Shown piece by piece: positions 891 to 42,701 of a stretch of DNA of 47,430 nt (position 1 is the first letter of the stretch; each line of letters opens with the position of its first letter). The stretch spans positions 1 through 47,430 of the forward strand of contig VXNP01000117.1 of the NCBI GenBank assembly GCA_009840525.1. The letters are read 5' to 3'. The translations under genes and the position numbers were made by a program. The DNA comes from Gammaproteobacteria bacterium. GTDB taxonomy: Bacteria > Gemmatimonadota > Gemmatimonadetes > Longimicrobiales > Gaopeijiaceae. The notes under the pieces are model-generated. The model saw nothing but the letters and a program-made list of their open reading frames with translations. It did not search any database and had not been told where the DNA came from.

Positions 891-2054
891 ATGGCACGCA
901 CGAAACGAAGTCGGCGCTCGTACGGCGCCGGCGAATGGGGCCGGAATCGGGTCCGGGTGTTTCCGGATCCGAAGACCGGCATCTTCCAGATCGAGTGGCG
1001 GGAGAACGGACGAAGGCTCACGAGGTCGCTCAGGCACCGCGACTGGACCAGAGCCAAGAAGCAGGCGGACGAATTCGCCGCGGGCTTCGGAGAGCCGGAC
1101 CCGAACGGCAAGGCGGAAGCCGAGCCCGATCCGCTCACCCTGGGACGGCTTTTTGACATCTACGGCGAAGAGGTGACGCCCACGAAGGGGAAGCGGACGC
1201 GCCAGCGCGACCGTGTCGCGACCCGGATGTTCCTCGACTTCTTCGGACGGGACCGAAGGCCGGAGACACTATCCCAGCGCGATTGGGACCGGTTCATCCG
1301 GGAGCGTCGCGCGGGCAGGGCCGGACGCTCGGGCCAACCCGTGGGCAACCGGACGATCGAGTGGGACCTGACGTTCCTGATGACCGTGCTCAACTGGGCC
1401 GCAAGGTCGCGGGACGAAAACGGACGGCTGCTCCTCGACTCCAACCCGCTCAAGGGCCTCAGGAAGCCCAAGGAGAAGAACCCCAACCGGGTCGTCCTCA
1501 GCGAGGACGAGTATCACGCGATGCTCGGGATTTCCCGGCAGGTCGGCTGGCGGTTCCATATCGCGCTCGTGCTCGCGCACGAGACCGGGCACCGAATCGG
1601 TGCCATCCGTGAACTCCGCTGGGCTGACATCGACATCGAGGGCCGTGAGGTCCTGTGGCGCGCGGAACACGAGAAGACCGGCTACGAACACGTAACGCCC
1701 CTGACCACCGAGGCGGTCGCCGCGTTGGAAGAGGCAGGGAGGATGGGCTCCGGGAGCGGCAATGCCCCGGTGCTGCCTTCGCCGAGCGATGCAACGCGGT
1801 GCATGAGCCGCGTTTGCGCGCATCACTGGTGGAAGAAGGCCGAGCGGCTCGCGGGACTGGAGCCGAGGCGGGGACGGGGCTGGCACTCGCTCCGTCGCAA
1901 GTTCGCTTCCGACCTCATGGAACTGCCGCTCAAGGTGCTGTGTGAGCTTGGCGGCTGGAAAAAGGCTCAGACGGTGTTGCGCTGCTATCAGCAACCCGAC
2001 GCGGTACAACTCAGGAAGGCTCTGGACAGCCGCCGCCGCAACCGCAGCGCCTGA
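891..2054 (+). CDS. Tyrosine recombinase / phage-type integrase
   Basis: A 387-residue site-specific recombinase that would cut and rejoin DNA through a phosphotyrosine intermediate. The N-terminal part (about 1-70) is Arg/Lys-rich like an arm-binding domain, about 85-180 fits a core-binding domain, and about 200-375 is the catalytic domain. The expected residues are visible: Arg235 in GHRIGAIR, Lys262, His332-x-x-Arg335, Trp356 in place of the second His, and the nucleophile Tyr366 in RCYQQ. Length and residue set are complete, so it may be active. A GAGAGG ribosome site lies about 7 bases before the ATG. It stands at the left of a run of nuclease and restriction genes, which suggests it is the integrase of that island, although no att repeats could be paired by eye. 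Confidence 0.93.
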   Translation: MARTKRSRRSYGAGEWGRNRVRVFPDPKTGIFQIEWRENGRRLTRSLRHRDWTRAKKQADEFAAGFGEPDPNGKAEAEPDPLTLGRLFDIYGEEVTPTKGKRTRQRDRVATRMFLDFFGRDRRPETLSQRDWDRFIRERRAGRAGRSGQPVGNRTIEWDLTFLMTVLNWAARSRDENGRLLLDSNPLKGLRKPKEKNPNRVVLSEDEYHAMLGISRQVGWRFHIALVLAHETGHRIGAIRELRWADIDIEGREVLWRAEHEKTGYEHVTPLTTEAVAALEEAGRMGSGSGNAPVLPSPSDATRCMSRVCAHHWWKKAERLAGLEPRRGRGWHSLRRKFASDLMELPLKVLCELGGWKKAQTVLRCYQQPDAVQLRKALDSRRRNRSA

Positions 2055-2674
2055 TCCGAATCGGCGGGAGCCAATCGGCGGGAATCAGGGCTGCCAATCC
2101 CATAACGCCAACCCCTACAGTACGATGCAGACTTCATAGCATTTGTGGGGTAGGCTGGCTTGAACCACGAAAACGGGCGTCAGAGAAGCCGGTGGCGACC
2201 GCGTCCGGGAAACCGGCAAACGCAGCTGCCGACGCGTTGGCGCAGCACCTCCGCGAATTCCTCGGGGAACCCGTTCAAGCAGCCGCAAGAGCGGCTCGCG
2301 GTCAGACGGAGACCTGTACGGCGAACGATACCGCAAATGCCGATGTCGCTGGAAACGAGCACCGGTTTCGCCTTGGGGTGGATCAACCTGACTACGTGCA
2401 ACTCCTCCGGTGCTTCGTCTCGTTTGCTGGTGCCGTCCTGCACTCTTCGGTGACCCGAAGGGCGGCGTCCTACGAGTTCCATCCGACATCGCGGTCGGAG
2501 GCGATCTCCCATCCCATCCAGGCGGCAGCCACTCGCCACATGCCAGAGGACTGTCCTGCCTTTCGTTTCGCCCGCGCCGAAGGTGCGGGGGGGCTGGCCT
2601 CCGGCGTATCATGACTGACTGTTGGAACGAAGCCGAAGGGCGATCACATCAGGAACAACGACTACGCAGCGACG
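2055..2674. other. 620-base gap, no confident gene
   Basis: Between the recombinase and the PD-(D/E)XK protein. A rightward frame from a GTG at 2192 to 2614 (140 residues) and a leftward frame 2180-2539 (119 residues) both stay open, but neither has a clear ribosome site or a family I recognise. The rightward one has a somewhat natural residue mix (for instance LAQHLREFLGEPVQ) and could be a decayed or orphan gene. The sequence near 2100-2160 (CATAACGCCAACCCC, then GTTCAAGCC-like on the reverse strand) was checked as a tRNA or attachment site and does not fold as a tRNA. Confidence 0.4.
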
Positions 2675-4012
2675 ATGGACCGGAAGGCAACGGACGAGAT
2701 GACACGGGACGAGGAGCTGGACAGGCTGGTCGCCGATTCTGGATTCCTCCGGTATCACGCGGAGTATGTGAAGCGGCGGGAGTTCAACGCCTTCGACGTG
2801 CTGCGCTATGCGGAGTACGAGATTCGCCACGGCAACGTGATGGCTTGGTTGCTAGACCCGAATGAGACCCATGGGATTGGCCGGGTCTTTCTGGAGTGGT
2901 TTCTGGGCCAGGCGAGGTTGCCCGGGAGGTTGCCGGGAAAGATCGTCTGCGGGGACGGCGGGCAGAAGGTGCGGGTCGAGCGGGAGCTGCACTATGTGGA
3001 CGTGATGATCTTTCTGGAGGGCGATCAGGGTCGGCACATTGTCGCGATCGAGAACAAGCCGGGGTGGGCTTCGCCAGAGCACTACGACCAGGTGCGCGGC
3101 TACGCTGCGGTGCTGCGGGCGAAGTATGGGGACCACGAGATTCACAACGTGCTGCTCTCCTCGTCGCGGGAGGGAATCGAGGACGAGGACGAGATTGCGC
3201 ATGTTAGCTGGCGGGATGTGGGCGCGCGGATCGAGACGATGCACGACGCGGGCATCTTCGGGCAGGGGGAAGTGGCCCCCTTCATTCGGCAATACCTCGT
3301 GGCGGTCGGTCGGCTGATCCGGCCGGAGGAGAGCGACGCGGACTACTTGAGGAAGCTGCTGGACGACCACCATTCCCTGCTGAAGTACATGTTCGGCGCG
3401 CTTGGCGACGAGGGGGGAGAGCAAGAGATCCGGGCGATGGTGCGAGAGCGTCACGCACACTACCAGGACACCGTGCTGCGGTTGGTGAAGACCTTCGGCC
3501 AGGAGCCGGAGAGGTTGCGGTCGGAAGTTCGAGACCTGCTGGCGAGTCGCGGAATAGAGACGACGATCACCTCAAGCAAAGGGAAAGTTGTGCTGTGGCT
3601 GAGCTGGGATCTGCAAGAAGCTCAAGGGCTGGGGCTTGGCGGGACCGGCGGGCGCATTTATTGGTTTTTCCAATTCACGCTCCGCAGCGTCGTCGTGGTG
3701 CTGGAATCCTCCCCGGGTCGTCGGGATGCGGTGGATCGGATCGTAGCCTGCATGCGCAAGATTCCGGTGGACCGGCGCCGTCGCGGCAGATACCCGATGA
3801 AAGCCGGGGCATTCAACCACTTCCACTTCTATCGCCACGAACTCGTCGGCGACGAAATCCTCTCGGGCAAGTCAACCGCAGAGGTCACGGAGGCCGTGCG
3901 GCAAGCCGTGGACGAATTCCTCGACGCGGAGGATTCGGACTACACGCGCATCAACGACTACTTCCAGTGCCTGGCGTTTCGGCCCGAAGCCGTCGCGGAG
4001 GAAGCGAAGTAA
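2675..4012 (+). CDS. PD-(D/E)XK nuclease-superfamily protein (PDDEXK_4-like)
   Basis: A 445-residue protein matching the PDDEXK_4 type of the PD-(D/E)XK nuclease superfamily. Near the N-terminus is the family block around residues 51-67 (RHGNVMAWLLDPNETHG). The catalytic core follows: Asp109 in YVDVMIF, then Glu126-x-Lys128 in AIENK, with a Gln139 further on as the usual last core residue. The C-terminal 250 residues have no recognised domain and end in a mixed region that may bind a partner or substrate. Members are often found in defence islands beside restriction systems, which fits the integrase on one side and McrBC on the other, but the target is unknown. The start is uncertain: ATG 2675 has no clear ribosome site, and ATG 2699 has GGAAGG 11 bases upstream. 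Confidence 0.85.
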   Translation: MDRKATDEMTRDEELDRLVADSGFLRYHAEYVKRREFNAFDVLRYAEYEIRHGNVMAWLLDPNETHGIGRVFLEWFLGQARLPGRLPGKIVCGDGGQKVRVERELHYVDVMIFLEGDQGRHIVAIENKPGWASPEHYDQVRGYAAVLRAKYGDHEIHNVLLSSSREGIEDEDEIAHVSWRDVGARIETMHDAGIFGQGEVAPFIRQYLVAVGRLIRPEESDADYLRKLLDDHHSLLKYMFGALGDEGGEQEIRAMVRERHAHYQDTVLRLVKTFGQEPERLRSEVRDLLASRGIETTITSSKGKVVLWLSWDLQEAQGLGLGGTGGRIYWFFQFTLRSVVVVLESSPGRRDAVDRIVACMRKIPVDRRRRGRYPMKAGAFNHFHFYRHELVGDEILSGKSTAEVTEAVRQAVDEFLDAEDSDYTRINDYFQCLAFRPEAVAEEAK

Positions 4013-5031: not shown

Positions 5032-6108
5032 CTACGAGTCGGAACCTGATAGCCCGATGGTCGCCAGCATTTCCCTGTGAATGCGCCGCCAGTCCCGGTC
5101 GAGGTTGACCGTCCGGGCTTGGACGCGGAATCCTTCGAGGCGGATATCGGCTCTCAGCGGTTCGCCGGCCTCGGGGTACAACAGGATGCCTTCGTGTTTG
5201 GGCTGCCCCGGGTTCATCGATTGGCGGTTCCGTAGGTACGCGAGCAACTGGTACAGGTTGCCGGAGTGCAGCTTTCCCATGCCGGAACCGCGTCCACGCG
5301 CCAGCGCGTCCCGGTAGTATTTCGTGTCGAGGATGATCCGGCGCTCGGATGATTCCAGGATCACATCGGCCGTCATGACGGGGATTCGAGCCCGGTTGGC
5401 GTCGTCCTCGGCACTGGCATCCCCCCAACGGATTCGGCGGCTGCCCCCCGGATTCACCCCGTACGCACGCTGCTCGCGCTCGTAGAATCCCGTGACGAAC
5501 TCCTCGAAGAGTGCCCACATGGTCGCTTCGTCCCGCCGGAAGTCGCGGAACGTCGTGTGCCCGGTCTTCTCGTCGACCACCGCGCTCTCATACAGGAGCC
5601 TGCACACCGAGAGGAGGAACTGGTAGAGCCGCCGGTTGCCACCGAGCTGGACATGGCTGAAGGCGTTCCTCGTCAGGCGGGTCCGCGACACGCCATCGAG
5701 GCGTCTGTATGCGGAGCGCACGTCGCTACGGACATCGCGGTGCAGCGTAACCCGCCTCCCCAGCAGCCCATGCAGGGACGTGCGCAGGATGCGGTTCGGC
5801 CGAGTGTCCACGGACAACTCCTCGAAGTCGCAGGCGGCCCGGCCGCGCGCCCGGAGCGCCCGCTTCGCCGTCTCGCTCACCGCCAGCTTTCCGCGGATTC
5901 CGGCGAGGTCCTCGCGTCGTTCCACGTAGCCGCGCTCGATGCCTCGGCGGAAGAGGTGGCTGACGCCGCCCGCGAGCACCTTGCCGAGAAGGTCCTGGAC
6001 CGTCGAAAGGCCGCCGAGCAAGGCCAGCCGTCTGGTGTCCCGCTCCTGAACCCGGCCCCAGGCGTAGCAGAGGAGGTAGTAGACGTTGAGGATCGGGATG
6101 TTCTTCAA
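5032..6108 (-). CDS. mcrC: McrC, nuclease subunit of a McrBC restriction system
   Basis: A 358-residue McrC-family protein, the endonuclease partner that works with the McrB motor to cut modified DNA. It opens with the McrC hallmark (K)NIPILNVYYLLCYAWG. The C-terminal PD-(D/E)XK core shows Asp248 in ADVILE and Asp261-x-Lys263 in ILDTKYY. The start taken is TTG 6108-6106, which overlaps the McrB stop codon as TTGA. The frame extends further upstream, but that extension runs through mcrB and is Arg-rich nonsense. The overlap implies translational coupling with mcrB. Nothing looks truncated, and the length is normal for the family. Confidence 0.92.
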   Translation of the reverse strand: MKNIPILNVYYLLCYAWGRVQERDTRRLALLGGLSTVQDLLGKVLAGGVSHLFRRGIERGYVERREDLAGIRGKLAVSETAKRALRARGRAACDFEELSVDTRPNRILRTSLHGLLGRRVTLHRDVRSDVRSAYRRLDGVSRTRLTRNAFSHVQLGGNRRLYQFLLSVCRLLYESAVVDEKTGHTTFRDFRRDEATMWALFEEFVTGFYEREQRAYGVNPGGSRRIRWGDASAEDDANRARIPVMTADVILESSERRIILDTKYYRDALARGRGSGMGKLHSGNLYQLLAYLRNRQSMNPGQPKHEGILLYPEAGEPLRADIRLEGFRVQARTVNLDRDWRRIHREMLATIGLSGSDS

Positions 6109-7844
6109 GGTCGGACGTCGTCGGTGAGTTTCGCCACATCTCTCTCGACGTCTTCCGCCGCATCGAACCAGTATTCCCGTAAGAGCGGAGCGAGCTGGGT
6201 GTCTACGACGTGCCTGTACCAATCCTCGGAAGGCACGTCACCATCGCCGGGAACAAAGTAGCTGTGGCCGATCCGAAACCCCCGGCCGAGTTCCTTGTCG
6301 TTTGCGATCTTCTCGTTGAGCTTGCCCATCCGGTCGCAGATGCGGCGGGCCAGGCTCGGATCTGCGCCCTTGGACGCGAGGTGTTTCTCGAACGCATTCC
6401 GTCCGTACTTGGTCCCGTATGCGGGCTCCAGCGTCTCGAAGGCGAATCGCCGACGCAACGCGTAATCGACCAAAGCCAATGAGCGGTCGGCGGTGTTCAT
6501 CATGCCAAGCAGGTGGACGTTGGCGGGGACGTGGAACCGCGTGTCGGAGTAGGGCAGGGTGACGGCGTAGTCCTTGCTGCGCTTGTCGGCCTCGATCAGC
6601 ATCAGGAGTTCGCCGAAGATACGGGACAGGTTTCCGCGGTTAATCTCGTCGATAATGAAGACGTGGGGTATGGCCGGTTTCGACCGAGCGCGGTCGCAGA
6701 AGCGCCGGAAGACGCCGGGCTTCAGGTCGAAGCCTCTCCCCTTGGGCCGGAAGCCTTCCACGAAATCCTCGTAGGCGTAGGACTGGTGGAACTGGACCAT
6801 CTCGATCGGGTCCGAGTCCTCGCGGCCAATCAGGCACCAGGCGATTCGGCGCGCGATGAAGGTCTTCCCGGTGCCGGGCGGCCCTTGGAGGATCAGGTTC
6901 TTGCCGGACTTGATGGACTCCACAAGGCGGGTGAAGTGGGCGGGGTCGATGAAGAGGTCTTGCTGGGCGTGCATGATCGTGTAGGCAGCCTCTGGGTCCG
7001 CTCCGGATCGGTCGCCCCCGTCGCGAGCTCTGTCGCCGTTCTTCTTGGCCTTGGGGACCGCAGGGCGCTGCCAAAGCTCCTTGATGTGGGGATCGTAGAA
7101 CCGGAACTCCCCATGTTCCTCCTCCAGCCGCCGACGGATCGAAAGTAGCGCCCGGTCGATCTCGACCGGGTTGGAGGTGTCGATCCGATCACCTTGATGC
7201 AAGCGGCTGACGATCTCGCTCTTCCCCTCACTGGAGAGAATGTCCTGGAATTCGTCGGGGAAGAGCAGCCACAGGATCGCGTGTCGGAACATGCGATTCG
7301 CGGCAAACTCGGTGCCGTCCAGCCATCGAGCGAAGTCCCAAGGGCGATGAAGGAGCTTCTCGCGGTCGCTTTGCGCCCTCGACGACCAGTTCCGCATGGC
7401 GACCGTGAAGAACCGGAGTTCTCTCCATGCGTGCGTGCCGTACGCCGGGCCGGGTTGGACGACCCCCGATCCAAGGATGGCGTCGCTCAGCAGTTCATGG
7501 TCTGCTGGGAAGTCGCGCTCCGACCAGCCCCAGATGTAGGCGATCCGCCTCCGCTTGGTTTCAGGGCCCATTGGGCTCTGAATCAGGTGGTACACCCATG
7601 TCATCTCGGCCCAAAGGCACTTGGCGTCGGGCGAGGCGGGTCGCAACTGGCGCTCCAACTTCTCCAGAAAAGAGCCTTCGGACAGGTGCTCGAGGTTCTC
7701 GACGAAGACCGCATGGAGTTCCTGGAAGTTGGAGCGAGTCCAGAGAGAGTCGTCAGTGAATAGCGAATCGCCCCGGAGAAGGCATTGGTGCTTCCAGCGC
7801 TCCACTGCAGCGAGAATCGGTTCAGCGTCCTTGAATCGGGCCAA
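6105..7844 (-). CDS. mcrB: McrB, AAA+ GTPase motor of a McrBC restriction system
   Basis: The motor and DNA-recognition subunit, about 579 residues from the chosen start. The AAA+ domain shows Walker A GPPGTGKT (321-328), Walker B IIDEINRGN (397-405, the McrB-type signature) and the MNTADRSLALVDYALRRRF sensor/arginine segment (449-468). The N-terminal 300 residues are not the E. coli DUF3578 type by eye and probably carry the target-binding specificity. I chose TTG 7844, with AAGGGAG 8 bases upstream, because the protein then begins (M)ARFKDAEPIL, a natural start. An upstream TTG at 7967 overlaps the stop of a small ORF as TTGA and cannot be excluded. McrB and McrC overlap, so the pair is one operon. 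It targets modified DNA by family knowledge; the exact modification is unknown. Confidence 0.92.
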   Translation of the reverse strand: MARFKDAEPILAAVERWKHQCLLRGDSLFTDDSLWTRSNFQELHAVFVENLEHLSEGSFLEKLERQLRPASPDAKCLWAEMTWVYHLIQSPMGPETKRRRIAYIWGWSERDFPADHELLSDAILGSGVVQPGPAYGTHAWRELRFFTVAMRNWSSRAQSDREKLLHRPWDFARWLDGTEFAANRMFRHAILWLLFPDEFQDILSSEGKSEIVSRLHQGDRIDTSNPVEIDRALLSIRRRLEEEHGEFRFYDPHIKELWQRPAVPKAKKNGDRARDGGDRSGADPEAAYTIMHAQQDLFIDPAHFTRLVESIKSGKNLILQGPPGTGKTFIARRIAWCLIGREDSDPIEMVQFHQSYAYEDFVEGFRPKGRGFDLKPGVFRRFCDRARSKPAIPHVFIIDEINRGNLSRIFGELLMLIEADKRSKDYAVTLPYSDTRFHVPANVHLLGMMNTADRSLALVDYALRRRFAFETLEPAYGTKYGRNAFEKHLASKGADPSLARRICDRMGKLNEKIANDKELGRGFRIGHSYFVPGDGDVPSEDWYRHVVDTQLAPLLREYWFDAAEDVERDVAKLTDDVRP

Positions 7845-7963
7845 TGGGTGGTCTCCCTTGCATGGATGTTGAGGTTCCACAGTCTCCCGAGAGGATAAGG
7901 GAACGGAGACCAGGCCGGACAGTGGGCGGGCGCTCAACCAAGCACCCGCGCGGGGCTCGGCTT

Positions 7964-8194
7964 TCAACGGTCAACCTCTTGGACCGGGCAAGATAGCCGG
8001 GCTCCCACCCGGACGAAGTGCGGGCCGCCATTCCAGCGCAGGACAAGGACCGGGACGGCTCCCTTAGCCGCCCGCAACAGGATGCCATGGTTCGAAAGAA
8101 GGCGAGAGAGGTAGGCTTCGGTGACCTCTGGAGAAGAGGCGGCGGCGGGTGGGGACTCCCGCCATTGGAGTATGTTTTCCCCGCTTCTGCGCAC
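7964..8194 (-). CDS. Possible small protein ahead of mcrB
   Basis: A 76-residue frame from GTG 8194 ending in a stop that overlaps an upstream TTG of the mcrB frame (TTGA). The product has a plausible mixture (EAYLSRLLSNHGILLRAAKG, then VPVLVLRWNG) and could be a small partner of the McrBC operon. No ribosome site is clear at the GTG and no family is recognised. It lies in the segment between mcrB and the point at 8293 where DUF222 homology stops. Confidence 0.35.
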   Translation of the reverse strand: MRRSGENILQWRESPPAAASSPEVTEAYLSRLLSNHGILLRAAKGAVPVLVLRWNGGPHFVRVGARLSCPVQEVDR

Positions 8195-8212
8195 GGTCCA
8201 GCAGGATTCAAC

Positions 8213-8836
8213 TCAACAGCAGGAAACGCAGATCGTGCAGCCCTGTATGAACTTATACGATTTCCTGCCGGGATTTCTACCTCTTGTGTTCCGCTTCTTC
8301 CACATGCGTACCGTCCGCTCCAGCTTCGCCGCCGAGCCCGCGCGCGCGAACTCGAGCAGCTCCGCCTCGCGCTCGGGCGTCGCAACCCGGGTGAGCGCCC
8401 GCACCTTGGCATACGAGATAGTGCCGTGTTTCAGAGCGTCCGCGGTCTGCGGCAGTCGCTCGAGCGCGCGGGCGGTCCGCACCCGTTCGCGGGCCGTACC
8501 GATCTTCGTGCCAATCCTCCAGGCCAGCCATTCGGCGCAGGAGGAGTAGCCGCCGTCCTTCCACCCGCCCCGGCGGTCGAACTCGGCGATGAGGGTCATC
8601 ATGCGCGCCTCGGCGGAGTTGATGCGGGCCGCCAGTTCGGCGATGCGCTCGCCCAGCCTGCGGAGTTCGTCGTCGTCACCATTGCCGGCGGCGCGATTCG
8701 GGGCGCTCTCGGGACCGGACGGCGCGGGGATGGCATCGGTGGACACGGTGCCGGCGCCCCTGGGTTCCCGCACCATCGCAGGCCGCGAGGCGGGCCTTCC
8801 GCGAGTGTCGTAAAGAAAGTTCGCAGGTGCGATCAC
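8213..8836 (-). pseudogene. Truncated DUF222 (13E12-type) protein, HNH domain lost
   Basis: From GTG 8836 (GGGAGG 4 bases upstream) the product matches the N-terminal part of the full DUF222-HNH protein encoded at 40699-42333. Both share DELRRLGERIAELA-like and AEARMM..IA.FDRRGGWKDG segments, and both carry LPQTADAL..GTISYAKVRALTRVATPE. Homology ends abruptly at the RMWKK codons (about 8293). The remaining 27 or so residues are unrelated and run to a chance stop at 8213. The central region and the whole HNH nuclease domain are missing. The breakpoint coincides with the right end of the McrBC island, so insertion or deletion there probably destroyed the gene. Confidence 0.8.
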
Positions 8837-8854
8837 AATTCCTCCCAACGTGAG

Positions 8855-8887
8855 ATTGTACAATGACTTACGTACAAACATAACGGC
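8855..8887. promoter_or_regulatory. AT-rich intergenic element of DUF222 locus A
   Basis: Lies between the divergent starts at 8836 and 8918. It contains ATTGTACAAT and, 15 bases on, GTACAA, ending in TAACGGC. The same arrangement occurs at 42352-42383. The paired TTGTAC/GTACAA words look like operator half-sites or overlapping divergent promoter elements and stand out against the GC-rich surroundings. The factor that binds is unknown. Confidence 0.45.
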
Positions 8888-8917
8888 ACTCAAATCGGCC
8901 ACTCAGGATGCCCTGTA

Positions 8918-9439
8918 GTGGCCGAAACGCGGTTCGGAGACCTTCGGAAGGGGCAGCTGCCTGTGAATGCCGCCGGCGAGCCCGCCAGCGCCTCTGGAAG
9001 GTCAGGGAAGATGGGGTCTCGGAGTTCGCCACATCGCGGCCCCCGGATCCGTCAATGGCAGAATGGGACACGCACATGTGAATTCGGGACGCAGCGGGCG
9101 AGTGTCGCCGACCCCTCGAACGGACTACGGCCCAATGACCGACGCGCTCGCCCGTCAATGGCAGAACGGGACACCCGAATGTGCATTCGGGACGCGGGCG
9201 CGCGGGTGTCGCCGACCCCTCGACCGGTACTACTGCCCAATACCGACGCGCCCGCCCGTCAATGGAGAACGGGACACCCGAATGTGACTTCAGGCCGTCC
9301 TGGTTCCGGCCAGCGGGGAGGTACGAGATCCCGGCGTGTCACCGCGCACTTCCGCCCCGTCCTGGCAGGCGATGCGAACCCGGTTGACGAGTTGCTCACA
9401 ATCAGTACCGTAGGGGAGCAAGCCATTCACGCTTCCTGA
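8918..9439 (+). CDS. Divergent MAE-start ORF of DUF222 locus A, probably degenerate
   Basis: A frame of up to 173 residues from GTG 8918, weakly preceded by AGGA. Its first residues (MAET..GD.R) and the motif RQWQNGTRTCEFG beginning at residue 45 line up without gaps with the ORF at 42414, where RQWQNG also begins at residue 45. Here the DNA repeats that encode the motif are 103 and 104 bases apart, so the second copy is out of frame and the third is changed to RQWRTG. This suggests decay, matching the broken DUF222 neighbour. It may never have been translated; the conserved unit could act as DNA. Confidence 0.3.
   Translation: MAETRFGDLRKGQLPVNAAGEPASASGRSGKMGSRSSPHRGPRIRQWQNGTRTCEFGTQRASVADPSNGLRPNDRRARPSMAERDTRMCIRDAGARVSPTPRPVLLPNTDAPARQWRTGHPNVTSGRPGSGQRGGTRSRRVTAHFRPVLAGDANPVDELLTISTVGEQAIHAS
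9051..9296 (+). repeat. Tandem ~103-bp repeat, about 2.4 copies
   Basis: Copies start with GTCAATGG at 9051, 9154 and 9258. Each has a core of about 38 bases (GTCAATGGCAGAAYGGGACAC, then ATGTGMATTCGGGACGC). A more variable spacer containing GTGTCGCCGACCCCTCGA follows, shared by the first two units. The third unit has lost one base in the core and stops early. The core recurs twice at the other DUF222 locus (42547, 42628), always in the same orientation relative to that gene. Confidence 0.8.
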
Positions 9440-40698: not shown

Positions 40699-42333
40699 TC
40701 ATCCGAAAGACTCCTCCACGGCTTCCCGCGCTGCGGCTTCGATCTCCCAGGGGATGTCGGAGTCGCGATAGAGGGCAGCCCCGTTTGGCAGCAGGGTCCG
40801 TTCAGCCGTCGACCGGGCGCCGGGACGGACCGATGGGACGGGCCGCAGGTCTGGGTGCGAGCGCTGCTCCTCTGAATCCGCCCACCCGCGCCGCTTCCGC
40901 GCTTCGGTCCGCTCAACCCGCTTCGGCGCATCCACCAGCGTTCTTCCCTTCGGTGTGAAGAACAGCACCGTCCCGTCACCGTTGACGGACACCTTGATCC
41001 GTCCCTCGTGGACGGCGCGATGGTGACGCCGACAGAGCAGCAGTGTGTTCCTGAGACTCGTCTCGCCCCCGTCGGCCCAATGCTTAACATGATGCGCCTC
41101 CGTGAACCTGCACCCACACCCGGGGAAGCGGCATCCCCGGTCCCGCTCCTCCAGCGCCCGCCGGATGTGCGGAGGAATCGTGCGCGTCCTTCGGCCCACG
41201 CTCAGCATCGACCCGTCCTTCGCGTGGACCATCGCTACCACCGCGGCATCGCAGGCCATGCGCCGCGACGTCTCCGCGGAAACGCGAATCCCGTCCAGAT
41301 CCGAGCGTGCCGGCTCGCCCTCTGCCGCGAGCGTCGCCGCATCGCAGTGGACCATGACCTGGTAGCGCTCGGCGCGGGTGCCGGACTCGACGCGGGGTGG
41401 GTCGACGTTCAATTGAGCGCGCTGTTCCTCGCGGGATTGAGTCGGCGGATCGTCGCCGGGCTCGCTACCCCCGAACCCCGCCGCCAGCGCCCGCTCCGCC
41501 AGCAGCCCCACGGCATCCGCTCGACGCTGCTTCGGCTCCGGGCGCGCGTCGCCGGCCTCGCGTCTGACACTCCTTCCACTTCCCGCCCCGTCTCGGGCCC
41601 CGCCCTCGCGCCCGAACAGCGCATCCGCTGCCGCCTCCACCGCCCTCATCAGCACCGCCCCGACCTCCGGCTCGAGCCGTCCCTTCACCACGTACATCCC
41701 GTCGCCATCCACGAACACGGCGAACGCGCGGCTGCGGTGCCGCGCTTGCTCGGCGGTCAGCTCCTCGTCGCGCGACAGCTTCTTCCACATGCGCACCATC
41801 TGCTCCAGATTCGCCGCCGACCCGGCGCGCGCGAACTCGAGCAACTCCGTCTCGCTCTCCGGAGTAGCCACGCGCGTGAGCGCCCGCACCTTGGCGTACG
41901 AAATGGTCCCGGCCCTCAGGGCGTCGGCGGTCTGCGGCAGGTTCTCCAGCGCGCGGGCGGCGCGGACCCGTTCGCGGGCCGGCCCGATCGTGATGCCGAT
42001 CTTCCAGGCCAGCCACTCGGCGCATGAACCGAACCCGTCCTTCCAGCCGCCCCGGCGATCGAAATCGGCGATGAGGGCCATCATCCGGGCTTCTGCGGCG
42101 TTGATGCCCTCGGCCAACTCCGCGATGCGCTCGCCGATCTGGCGGAGTTCATCGTCGTCGTCGGGCCTGGGATCTGACGGAGCACAGGTGTCAGCGGAAG
42201 CCACTGTTTCAGTGCCGGAACGGGAGGGCGCAGAGGTGACATCGGACCGTCCACTCACCGGTTCCCGCACCATCGCAGGCCAGGGAAGAGGCTTCCTGCG
42301 AGTGTCGTAGAGAAGGTGCGGGGATGCGATCAT
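40699..42333 (-). CDS. DUF222 / 13E12-type HNH endonuclease-like protein, full length
   Basis: A 544-residue protein with the DUF222 domain (about 65-330) and a C-terminal HNH nuclease domain (about 395-440). The HNH core reads CRFPGCGCRFTEAHHVKHWADGG, with His414-His415 followed by NTLLLCRRHH, so both metal- and zinc-binding sets appear intact. The start is ATG 42333 with GGAGG 4 bases upstream. The family includes the REP13E12 repeat proteins of mycobacteria and is often multicopy. Its role is unsettled: mobile or homing-like, or defence. This is the intact sister of the truncated copy at 8213-8836, and both have the same divergent neighbourhood. Confidence 0.9.
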   Translation of the reverse strand: MIASPHLLYDTRRKPLPWPAMVREPVSGRSDVTSAPSRSGTETVASADTCAPSDPRPDDDDELRQIGERIAELAEGINAAEARMMALIADFDRRGGWKDGFGSCAEWLAWKIGITIGPARERVRAARALENLPQTADALRAGTISYAKVRALTRVATPESETELLEFARAGSAANLEQMVRMWKKLSRDEELTAEQARHRSRAFAVFVDGDGMYVVKGRLEPEVGAVLMRAVEAAADALFGREGGARDGAGSGRSVRREAGDARPEPKQRRADAVGLLAERALAAGFGGSEPGDDPPTQSREEQRAQLNVDPPRVESGTRAERYQVMVHCDAATLAAEGEPARSDLDGIRVSAETSRRMACDAAVVAMVHAKDGSMLSVGRRTRTIPPHIRRALEERDRGCRFPGCGCRFTEAHHVKHWADGGETSLRNTLLLCRRHHRAVHEGRIKVSVNGDGTVLFFTPKGRTLVDAPKRVERTEARKRRGWADSEEQRSHPDLRPVPSVRPGARSTAERTLLPNGAALYRDSDIPWEIEAAAREAVEESFG

Positions 42334-42351: not shown

Positions 42352-42383
42352 ATTGTACAACAATTTACATACAATATAACGGC
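42352..42383. promoter_or_regulatory. AT-rich intergenic element of DUF222 locus B
   Basis: Between the divergent starts 42333 and 42414. It contains ATTGTACAACAAT and TACATACAAT then TAACGGC, matching the element at 8855-8887 in order and spacing (32 against 33 bases). It probably holds divergent promoters and an operator shared by the two genes. Confidence 0.5.
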
Positions 42384-42413
42384 GCCGGAATCGACCTCTC
42401 AGGAGGCTCTGTA

Positions 42414-42701
42414 ATGGCCGAAATCGGGTCGGGAGACGATCGACGAAGGAAGGGGCCTGCGAGCGCTCTCACAGAGGCGGTCAGCGCCGCCAGCGGGCCG
42501 CGGGATCCGGGATATCGGATCGCATCGAAGCGCGAGCCGAAAACCCGTCAATGGCAGAATGGGCCACGCAGATGTGAATTCGAGCGAGACTTGGCGCGGG
42601 CCGGCGGGAGCCGTGCGTCGAGCTCCTGTCAATGGCGAGACTGGCCCCGCCGATGTGAATTCGGGCGACGTGCCGCCGCGCTCCGGATCAGAAAGGGATG
42701 A
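42414..42701 (+). CDS. Small divergent protein with two RQWQNG...CEF-type repeats
   Basis: A 95-residue ORF from ATG 42414 with a perfect AGGAGG 7 bases upstream. The product begins MAEIGSGDD, then is Arg/Ser/Ala-rich. It has RQWQNGPRRCEF at residues 45-56 and, 27 residues later, CQWRDWPRRCEFG, encoded by two DNA repeats exactly 81 bases apart. One Cys per repeat could bind metal or form a disulfide. It is divergent from the DUF222-HNH gene, and the sister locus has the same start (MAE..GD) and the motif at the same residue. I recognise no family. It could be a partner or antidote of the nuclease, or the repeats may act as DNA and the ORF be incidental. Confidence 0.45.
   Translation: MAEIGSGDDRRRKGPASALTEAVSAASGPRDPGYRIASKREPKTRQWQNGPRRCEFERDLARAGGSRASSSCQWRDWPRRCEFGRRAAALRIRKG
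42547..42666 (+). repeat. Two copies of the GTCAATGG core repeat at locus B
   Basis: Cores begin at 42547 and 42628. The first (GTCAATGGCAGAATGGG, then CACGCAGATGTGAATTCG) is nearly identical to the first copy at 9051. The second begins TGTCAATGGCGAGA, then shares GATGTGAATTCGGGCG. The first core lies 214 bases from the DUF222 start here and 215 in locus A. Confidence 0.75.

Follow-up and report, generated by a model that had tools for sequence, protein, structure and literature searches.

Loci A and B lie in the window, the whole 47,430-nt stretch of DNA that was analysed, which is contig 141 of a 3.99-Mb assembly with 155 contigs. They belong to a set of nine DUF222 units with a leader in this genome. 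The unit is composed of a DUF222-HNH gene, an AT-rich dyad at the start of the gene, a spacer that hardly varies in length and between one and seven 40-nt core repeats, and it extends over ~2 kb from just past the stop codon of the gene, where DUF222 sequence likeness ends, to just past the last core repeat. The window's genus, within the Gemmatimonadota, is probably Candidatus Palauibacter; the source genome is referred to as G000 and the other ten genomes of its genus as G001 to G010. The unit is real, repeated and mobile-looking, and kin to REP13E12 of mycobacteria, with a cis-repeat system that we did not find described. We favour, with a probability of roughly 0.45, the interpretation that A and B are copies of a dispersed REP13E12-like mobile repeat, the nuclease of which acts on the core repeats and which is spread by recombinational repair.

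The initial annotation had described at both loci a leftward DUF222 gene, an AT-rich dyad, a divergent start reading MAE and a core repeat 215 or 214 nt from the DUF222 start; every one of these parts is present in the sequence, and the nine units confirm that the observation was right and understated. At A, the GTG-ATC-GCA start of the gene was read at 8836, the divergent GTG-GCC-GAA at 8918 and the first GTCAATGGCAG at 9051, 215 nt from the DUF222 start. At B, the gene starts with ATG-ATC-GCA at 42333, or alternatively with ATG-ATG from 42336, the divergent ATG-GCC-GAA lies at 42414 and the first core repeat at 42547, 214 nt from the DUF222 start. Locus A contains three core repeats, ~103 nt apart, and locus B two, ~81 nt apart. 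The leaders of A and B are only 70% identical, so the two loci are not a recent block duplication identical throughout. Pfam DUF222 (PF02720) matches B with 96.7 bits and the A fragment with 48.2 bits (cut-off 24.4), and Pfam HNH (PF01844) matches B with 25.0 bits (cut-off 21.4). At locus A the gene is only a 5' half of 186 residues, and the HNH part is absent. The features are collected in Table 1.

Table 1. Features at and around loci A and B of the window (positions in nt; a dot marks features given no strand).
Feature	Position	Strand	Remark
Tyrosine recombinase	891..2054	+	77% identical to one beside a displaced DUF222 3' half in G004
PD-(D/E)XK nuclease-superfamily gene (PDDEXK_4)	2675..4012	+	
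McrC-like gene (PF10117 McrBC)	5032..6222	-	
McrB-like AAA_5 ATPase	6105..7967	-	Stretch beside A
54-nt hairpin-forming end sequence of inserted element	8217..8270	-	Dispersed relatives in genus
Junction: core ACGCATGTGGAAGAAGC within DUF222 codons for MWKK, then integrative-element sequence	8293..8309	-	
Locus A DUF222 gene, 5' half (residues 1 to ~186), start GTG 8836	8294..8836	-	HNH half absent here; Pfam DUF222 positions 4-121 of 306
Locus A AT-rich element	8854..8887	.	Dyad TTGTAC-N10-GTACAA at 8856-8877
Locus A spacer, conserved length	8888..9048	+	MAE frame from 8918; no coding sign, no conserved RNA fold
Core repeat A1	9049..9092	+	
Core repeat A2	9153..9194	+	
Core repeat A3	9257..9297	+	
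Locus B complete DUF222-HNH gene, 545 aa	40699..42336	-	Pfam DUF222 E 2e-27, and HNH
Integration site 2 in B, unoccupied (CACGATTCCTCCGCACAT)	41165..41182	-	Just before HNH motif
Integration site 1 in B, unoccupied (GCGCATGTGGAAGAAGC)	41778..41794	-	
Locus B AT-rich element	42352..42383	.	Dyad at 42353-42374
Locus B spacer	42384..42544	+	MAE frame from 42414; one base shorter
Core repeat B1	42545..42585	+	
Core repeat B2	42627..42668	+	

The resemblance between A and B is not due to chance, since a scan of the source genome with the core pattern (at most two mismatches) gave 22 matches and the reversed control none. Of these matches, 21 are located at a DUF222 unit or close to a remnant of one (contig C123, 1.5 kb away), and the remaining one (C131) was missed by the repeat profile. 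The same genome has 15 PF02720 match rows on nine contigs and nine long leader matches, and its nine aligned units share the dyad, the first repeat and a spacer of equal length, which is one base shorter in B. Across the genus, DUF222 matches were found in all 11 genomes, in ten of them above the cut-off, and the leader in 10 of 11, with at least 64 matches of at least 170 nt, eight of which are in G010, a near-twin of G004; the genome with no leader match, G007, is 67% complete. Outside the source genome, the core pattern matched 142 times in the ten remaining genomes of the genus (control 2) and 26 times in 48 genomes of other genera (control 15), and the exact core repeat appears to be confined to one genus. 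In the Gemmatimonadota family concerned, DUF222 occurs in 64 of 116 genomes, which represent 25 of 40 genera. When the contigs of named genomes were scanned for the exact core, 33 stretches were found, 30 of which also carry the leader or a DUF222 gene (one is Ca. P. rhopaloidicola); the other three are from Dehalococcoidales, Oscillospiraceae and Bacterium D16-76, and by our own arithmetic about four chance matches are expected in this collection. Among the fetched loci with repeats, 68 of 70 also hold the leader or DUF222, most having been fetched for one of these, so that the genome scan is the unbiased test; the two lone repeats, L143 and L220, are both in G001. Gene, dyad and repeats therefore co-occur at many unrelated sites, as a search for the element and the repeat across genomes had been expected to reveal.

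The arrangement of the leader is close to invariant. For 47 near-full leaders, once ten loci had been removed as overlapping fetches or as G010 near-twins of those in G004, the distance from the dyad to the first repeat is 195 nt in 35, 194 nt in seven and 196 nt in one, with no value for four. The spacing between repeats is bimodal, 80-82 nt in 39 of 85 cases and 101-104 nt in 22 of 85; helical phasing of the repeats was considered and set aside, the phase statistic being broad and proving nothing. The dyad with at most one mismatch occurs at eight places in the source genome, every one at a DUF222 unit, so, as far as LexA/SOS control is concerned, no wider regulon is visible. With two mismatches there are 19 further sites (one at the C125 unit) against 22 in the control, which is background, and the dyad was rejected as a regulon box.

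The initial annotation had proposed a two-component cassette that includes a small ORF. Coding and fold tests were performed on the 35 of 47 leaders with a distance of exactly 195 nt and no gaps (B, one base shorter, was excluded). The MAE frame is free of stops in 33 of these 35, as expected of a small gene, but its variability at codon positions 1, 2 and 3 (0.164, 0.213 and 0.159) shows no third-position excess, its N/S is 1.12, its start is altered to GCG in 3 of 47 copies and a Pfam search of the ORFs in A and B gave no match; another forward frame has an N/S of 0.61, yet has stops in 32 of 35. The small divergent protein was rejected on the codon statistics and the lack of a Pfam match, and since the ORF fails the coding test, no second component of the unit is visible; we give the cassette hardly any likelihood.

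An RNA-guided or RNA-regulated nuclease, for which the repeats would be transcribed away from the gene as a guide or regulatory RNA, would fit the divergent layout and the AT-rich start region, but we consider it very improbable. RNAalifold on the 35 leaders gave z ~ -1.3 on both strands against 30 column shuffles, with no conserved fold, and an Rfam search at A had no match, and a structured leader RNA was discarded on these grounds. A CRISPR-like guide array was likewise rejected, because the stretches between the A repeats are alike (90% over 30 nt) and not unique. A promoter scan gave nothing at A; its one match at B is weak, on the minus strand and directed towards the gene. On visual inspection, the dyad could be taken for overlapping promoters.

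The HNH region of the gene is under strong purifying selection, with a median dN/dS of 0.044 against 0.254 overall (22 copies, 231 pairs). The exact motif HHVKHWADGG is found in 22 of 29 full-length copies; the other seven, a conserved-site subfamily, do not have it in exact form, but keep LC.RHHR. Structure prediction of B from 28 sequences had a mean pLDDT of 45 and was set aside. We also observed a divergent DUF222 subfamily (L119, L134, L135, L137, L149, L150 and L151; 56-61% identical to B by tblastn). Its units have one weak core repeat each, and their flanks agree in 7 of 7 genomes for which both are known; it is possibly the inherited parent copy.

The DUF222 gene is the insertion site of two different tyrosine-recombinase elements, at two codons; locus A is the 5' half of a gene cut by one such element and locus B is intact. 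Seven sequences, A among them, break off at one shared codon (MWKK) and continue into one hairpin-bearing sequence, two of them (L092 and L093) being near-twin assemblies. Ahead of the matching 3' halves, found in G000, G004, G010, G008 and G003, lie in this order the end of a tyrosine recombinase, ~90 nt and the same 16-nt core with 0-2 changes; in a sixth (G005) the linking sequence is visible up to the contig end, and other DUF222 3' pieces end at contig ends or differ. The second site lies just before the HNH motif, where an element of 3.1-3.7 kb with a different tyrosine recombinase is present in G008 (L078:2113-5120) and in G000 (L046:1660-5300), with both junctions on one contig. The L078 recombinase, the one protein of the two searched against Pfam, has arm-binding, central and catalytic domains, and the element also carries an ORF for a putative signal peptidase. 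That the gene is a landing site for two element types explains why such loci are found broken.

The PDDEXK and McrBC genes lie between the window recombinase (891-2054) and A. Since the orientation of this recombinase is at odds with a single simple element that ends at A, the stretch beside A may hold more than one element. Past the stop of the recombinase, window positions 2040-2200 resemble the sequence beside displaced DUF222 3' halves but do not contain their core, a likeness that suggests either a second element or an older junction adjoining A. A sequence of up to ~180 nt that contains the 54-nt hairpin (window 8107-8294, L156, L128, L039, L112 and L121) is dispersed in the genus, at split DUF222 genes and at many sites elsewhere, and is perhaps the end of an integrative-element family. 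At L160:3084-4232, the displaced 3' half of a split gene keeps an open frame of 382 codons with a new ATG, and the HNH half may still be made there.

The disruption of the gene at two codons by two different tyrosine-recombinase elements, together with the McrBC pair and the PDDEXK nuclease beside A, would also be compatible with a defence locus, in which incoming DNA would be attacked by the HNH nuclease, and integrative elements would silence the nuclease by inserting into its gene. PADLOC assigned no family to the complete B protein, however, and gave only a marginal LmuB match (E 0.0018) for the A fragment; multicopy genes are frequent landing sites in any case, and the McrBC genes belong to the stretch beside A, outside the unit. 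We consider a role in defence improbable.

Comparison between related species revealed that the whole unit is present or absent between matching flanks at four sites, R9, R6, R4 and the cox site beside A, which supports the earlier suggestion that it moves or acts as one unit. At R9, the G000 unit occupies 2308 nt where G008, G009, G004 and G010 have a homologous spacer of 33-55 nt between the same genes. G002 is probably empty at this site (left match displaced, gap of 11 nt), in G003 and G006 a unit is present, with a similar junction on the right, and G001 differs. R6 is filled in G006 and G009 and empty in G001, G007 and G005 (~7, 153 and 321 nt between the flanks), and R4 is filled in G004 and empty in G008 (29 nt), with a lone repeat in G001. 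The right flank and unit of the cox site are common to G000, G008, G009, G006, G005 and G002, the left flank being the same receptor gene in G008 and G009, and in G004 the unit abuts a shortened cox region; the unit is absent from G001, where the receptor gene and the cox genes are ~70 nt apart, and from G003, with ~600 nt of other sequence between. The ppk site beside B is occupied by units in G000, G008, G009, G004 and G010 and by a lone repeat in G001; G003, G005 and G006 have a different neighbouring gene and are not clean empty sites. No target-site duplication was seen by eye at R9, R6, R4 or in the sister-genus genome G098, and since the filled alleles replace 7-321 nt of spacer, no exact target site is defined.

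Most copies are old and inherited rather than recently moved, since the right flanks form 12 shared sites of 3-9 loci each; the left flanks group differently. Exchange between copies is also evident. Identical runs of 526, 512 and 504 nt are found among C86, C121 and C125 of G000, and the longest between copies with different flanks, 563 nt, may reflect assembly collapse. In C86 and C121 the left and right flanks are swapped relative to those that adjoin in empty sites, a swap that may be an assembly chimera because the two share 526 identical nt. A second re-pairing involves G000 C133 and G003 C7 and C11, in which the G003 copies share just 50 identical nt and the copy in G000 has itself been interrupted by an inserted element. 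Simple insertion that preserves synteny was rejected, as flanks are re-paired between genomes, in part in possibly chimeric assemblies. Separately, L092 and L096 (G004 contigs 54 and 37) were seen to have an identical DUF222 5' stretch, the 563-nt run, with different flanks, owing either to recent gene conversion or to assembly collapse.

The shared right-flank sites, the subfamily that keeps its flanks and the apparent crossovers between C86 and C121 could all be accounted for by a passive, ancient multicopy family that is inherited vertically and shifts in position or number only through ordinary homologous recombination between its copies, with a nuclease that serves the cell, for example in DNA repair. 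We judge this unlikely, though far from negligible: it sits poorly with the patchy presence of whole units at R9 over a homologous spacer and with the inverted end repeats and deletion derivatives of G098 described below, and its crossover argument is weakened by the possible chimera.

The closed genome G098, of the sister genus g25, has nine DUF222 units that are 92-95% identical over ~1.6 kb. In all nine, a single 40-nt repeat lies shortly upstream of the gene and a ~45-bp repeat on the 3' side, and eight of nine have one or two inverted 5' copies within their 6-kb loci, the copy of the ninth (L243) being ~5 kb away. Five of these brackets are shorter than 2.1 kb and four (L243, L247, L249 and L250) are stretched by other DNA. 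The outer-repeat pattern gave 36 matches in this genome against 0 in the control, although some of the two-mismatch matches are perhaps chance; two brackets of 789 and 861 bp are internally deleted units that keep both ends, and four lone repeats were read. The upstream repeat agrees with the window core at 22 of 40 positions, a value reached by 3 of 20000 shuffles (the likeness was noticed before testing), and the outer repeat more weakly, at 20 of 40 (202 of 20000 shuffles). A second DUF222 type in G098 (three units) has no such bracket, and no general bracket was found in eight loci of other genera scanned with short flanks. With three mismatches, the outer-repeat pattern lies upstream of the gene in L232 and L233 (g25) and elsewhere at L236, L238 and L240, shuffles giving ~0.17 matches per 3 kb.

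DUF222-HNH units might be autonomous mobile elements, mobilised by the HNH endonuclease and not by a transposase, with the core repeats as cis sites that are arranged as inverted ends or as a one-sided array depending on the genus; we hold this as a tentative possibility. Several observations count against the mobile-repeat interpretation, among them the shared right-flank sites, the lack of an exact target site and the weaker match of the window core to the outer repeat. In the window's genus no core repeat lies closer than 300 nt to the gene's 3' end in any of 29 copies (best score -13.4, where 149 of 156 known repeats score above -13), no target-site duplication was seen at the junctions read, and four of the nine G098 brackets are stretched.

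For the dispersed mobile repeat that we favour, the DUF222-HNH protein would most likely bind the core repeats as its own ends or loading sites and would then cut or nick the DNA. Recombinational repair would copy the unit into intergenic spacers, and the copies would afterwards swap sequence by gene conversion. Locus A was later split by a tyrosine-recombinase element using the gene as its insertion site. Presence and absence as a unit is observed; core-repeat binding, cutting, copying and movement driven by the nuclease are what we infer. The fixed upstream cis repeat, the empty sites and the inverted-repeat brackets make the 'function unknown' of DUF222 directly testable, through binding or cutting of the repeat, and mobilisation by the HNH nuclease, if true, would provide a function for the long-unexplained 13E12 family.

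The unit can be compared with several known systems. Like insertion sequences and transposons, the g25 units are bracketed by inverted repeats, and internally deleted versions of them exist; they differ in having no transposase family and no visible target duplication, and in the window's genus the repeats are confined to the 5' side. As with HNH homing endonuclease genes, related species differ in whether the nuclease gene occupies a fixed site, with no target duplication; here, however, the sites are many intergenic spacers, some spacer is replaced and no interrupted recognition site was identified. A tyrosine recombinase that adjoins a short duplicated core within a host gene is shared with integrative elements that have their attachment site in a protein gene, although in this case the host gene is a repeated nuclease gene with two element kinds at two sites.

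The closest likeness is to REP13E12. The parts of the literature available describe the REP13E12 multicopy DUF222 repeats of Mycobacterium tuberculosis as undergoing frequent gene conversion, with 14 annotated REP13E12 genes in H37Rv (PMC13061034), and the phiRv1 prophage as sitting in REP13E12, its attachment site, and as having a serine recombinase (PMC9317374). In the passages available, 13E12 repeats are described with mobile-element characteristics, citing Davis 2002, and 13E12 members occur in a regulon discussed under DNA repair (PMC5005354), and REP13E12/HNH/DUF222 was encountered in a mobile-element screen (PMC10589994); in the accessible portions of PMC3986857 and PMC10123090 we found no passage on DUF222 itself. 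The initial annotation had called the cassette undescribed, which does not hold for multicopy DUF222 repeats, already known in mycobacteria as REP13E12, but stands for the core-repeat array and dyad: in the portions of the literature searched we found no published array, dyad or inverted ends for DUF222 units. Both systems are dispersed multicopy DUF222 units that exchange sequence between copies and serve as the attachment site of integrative elements. The upstream dyad and core-repeat array carried by the units here may set them apart, and the integrative elements differ: here they use tyrosine recombinases at two codons, whereas phiRv1 uses a serine recombinase (PMC9317374).
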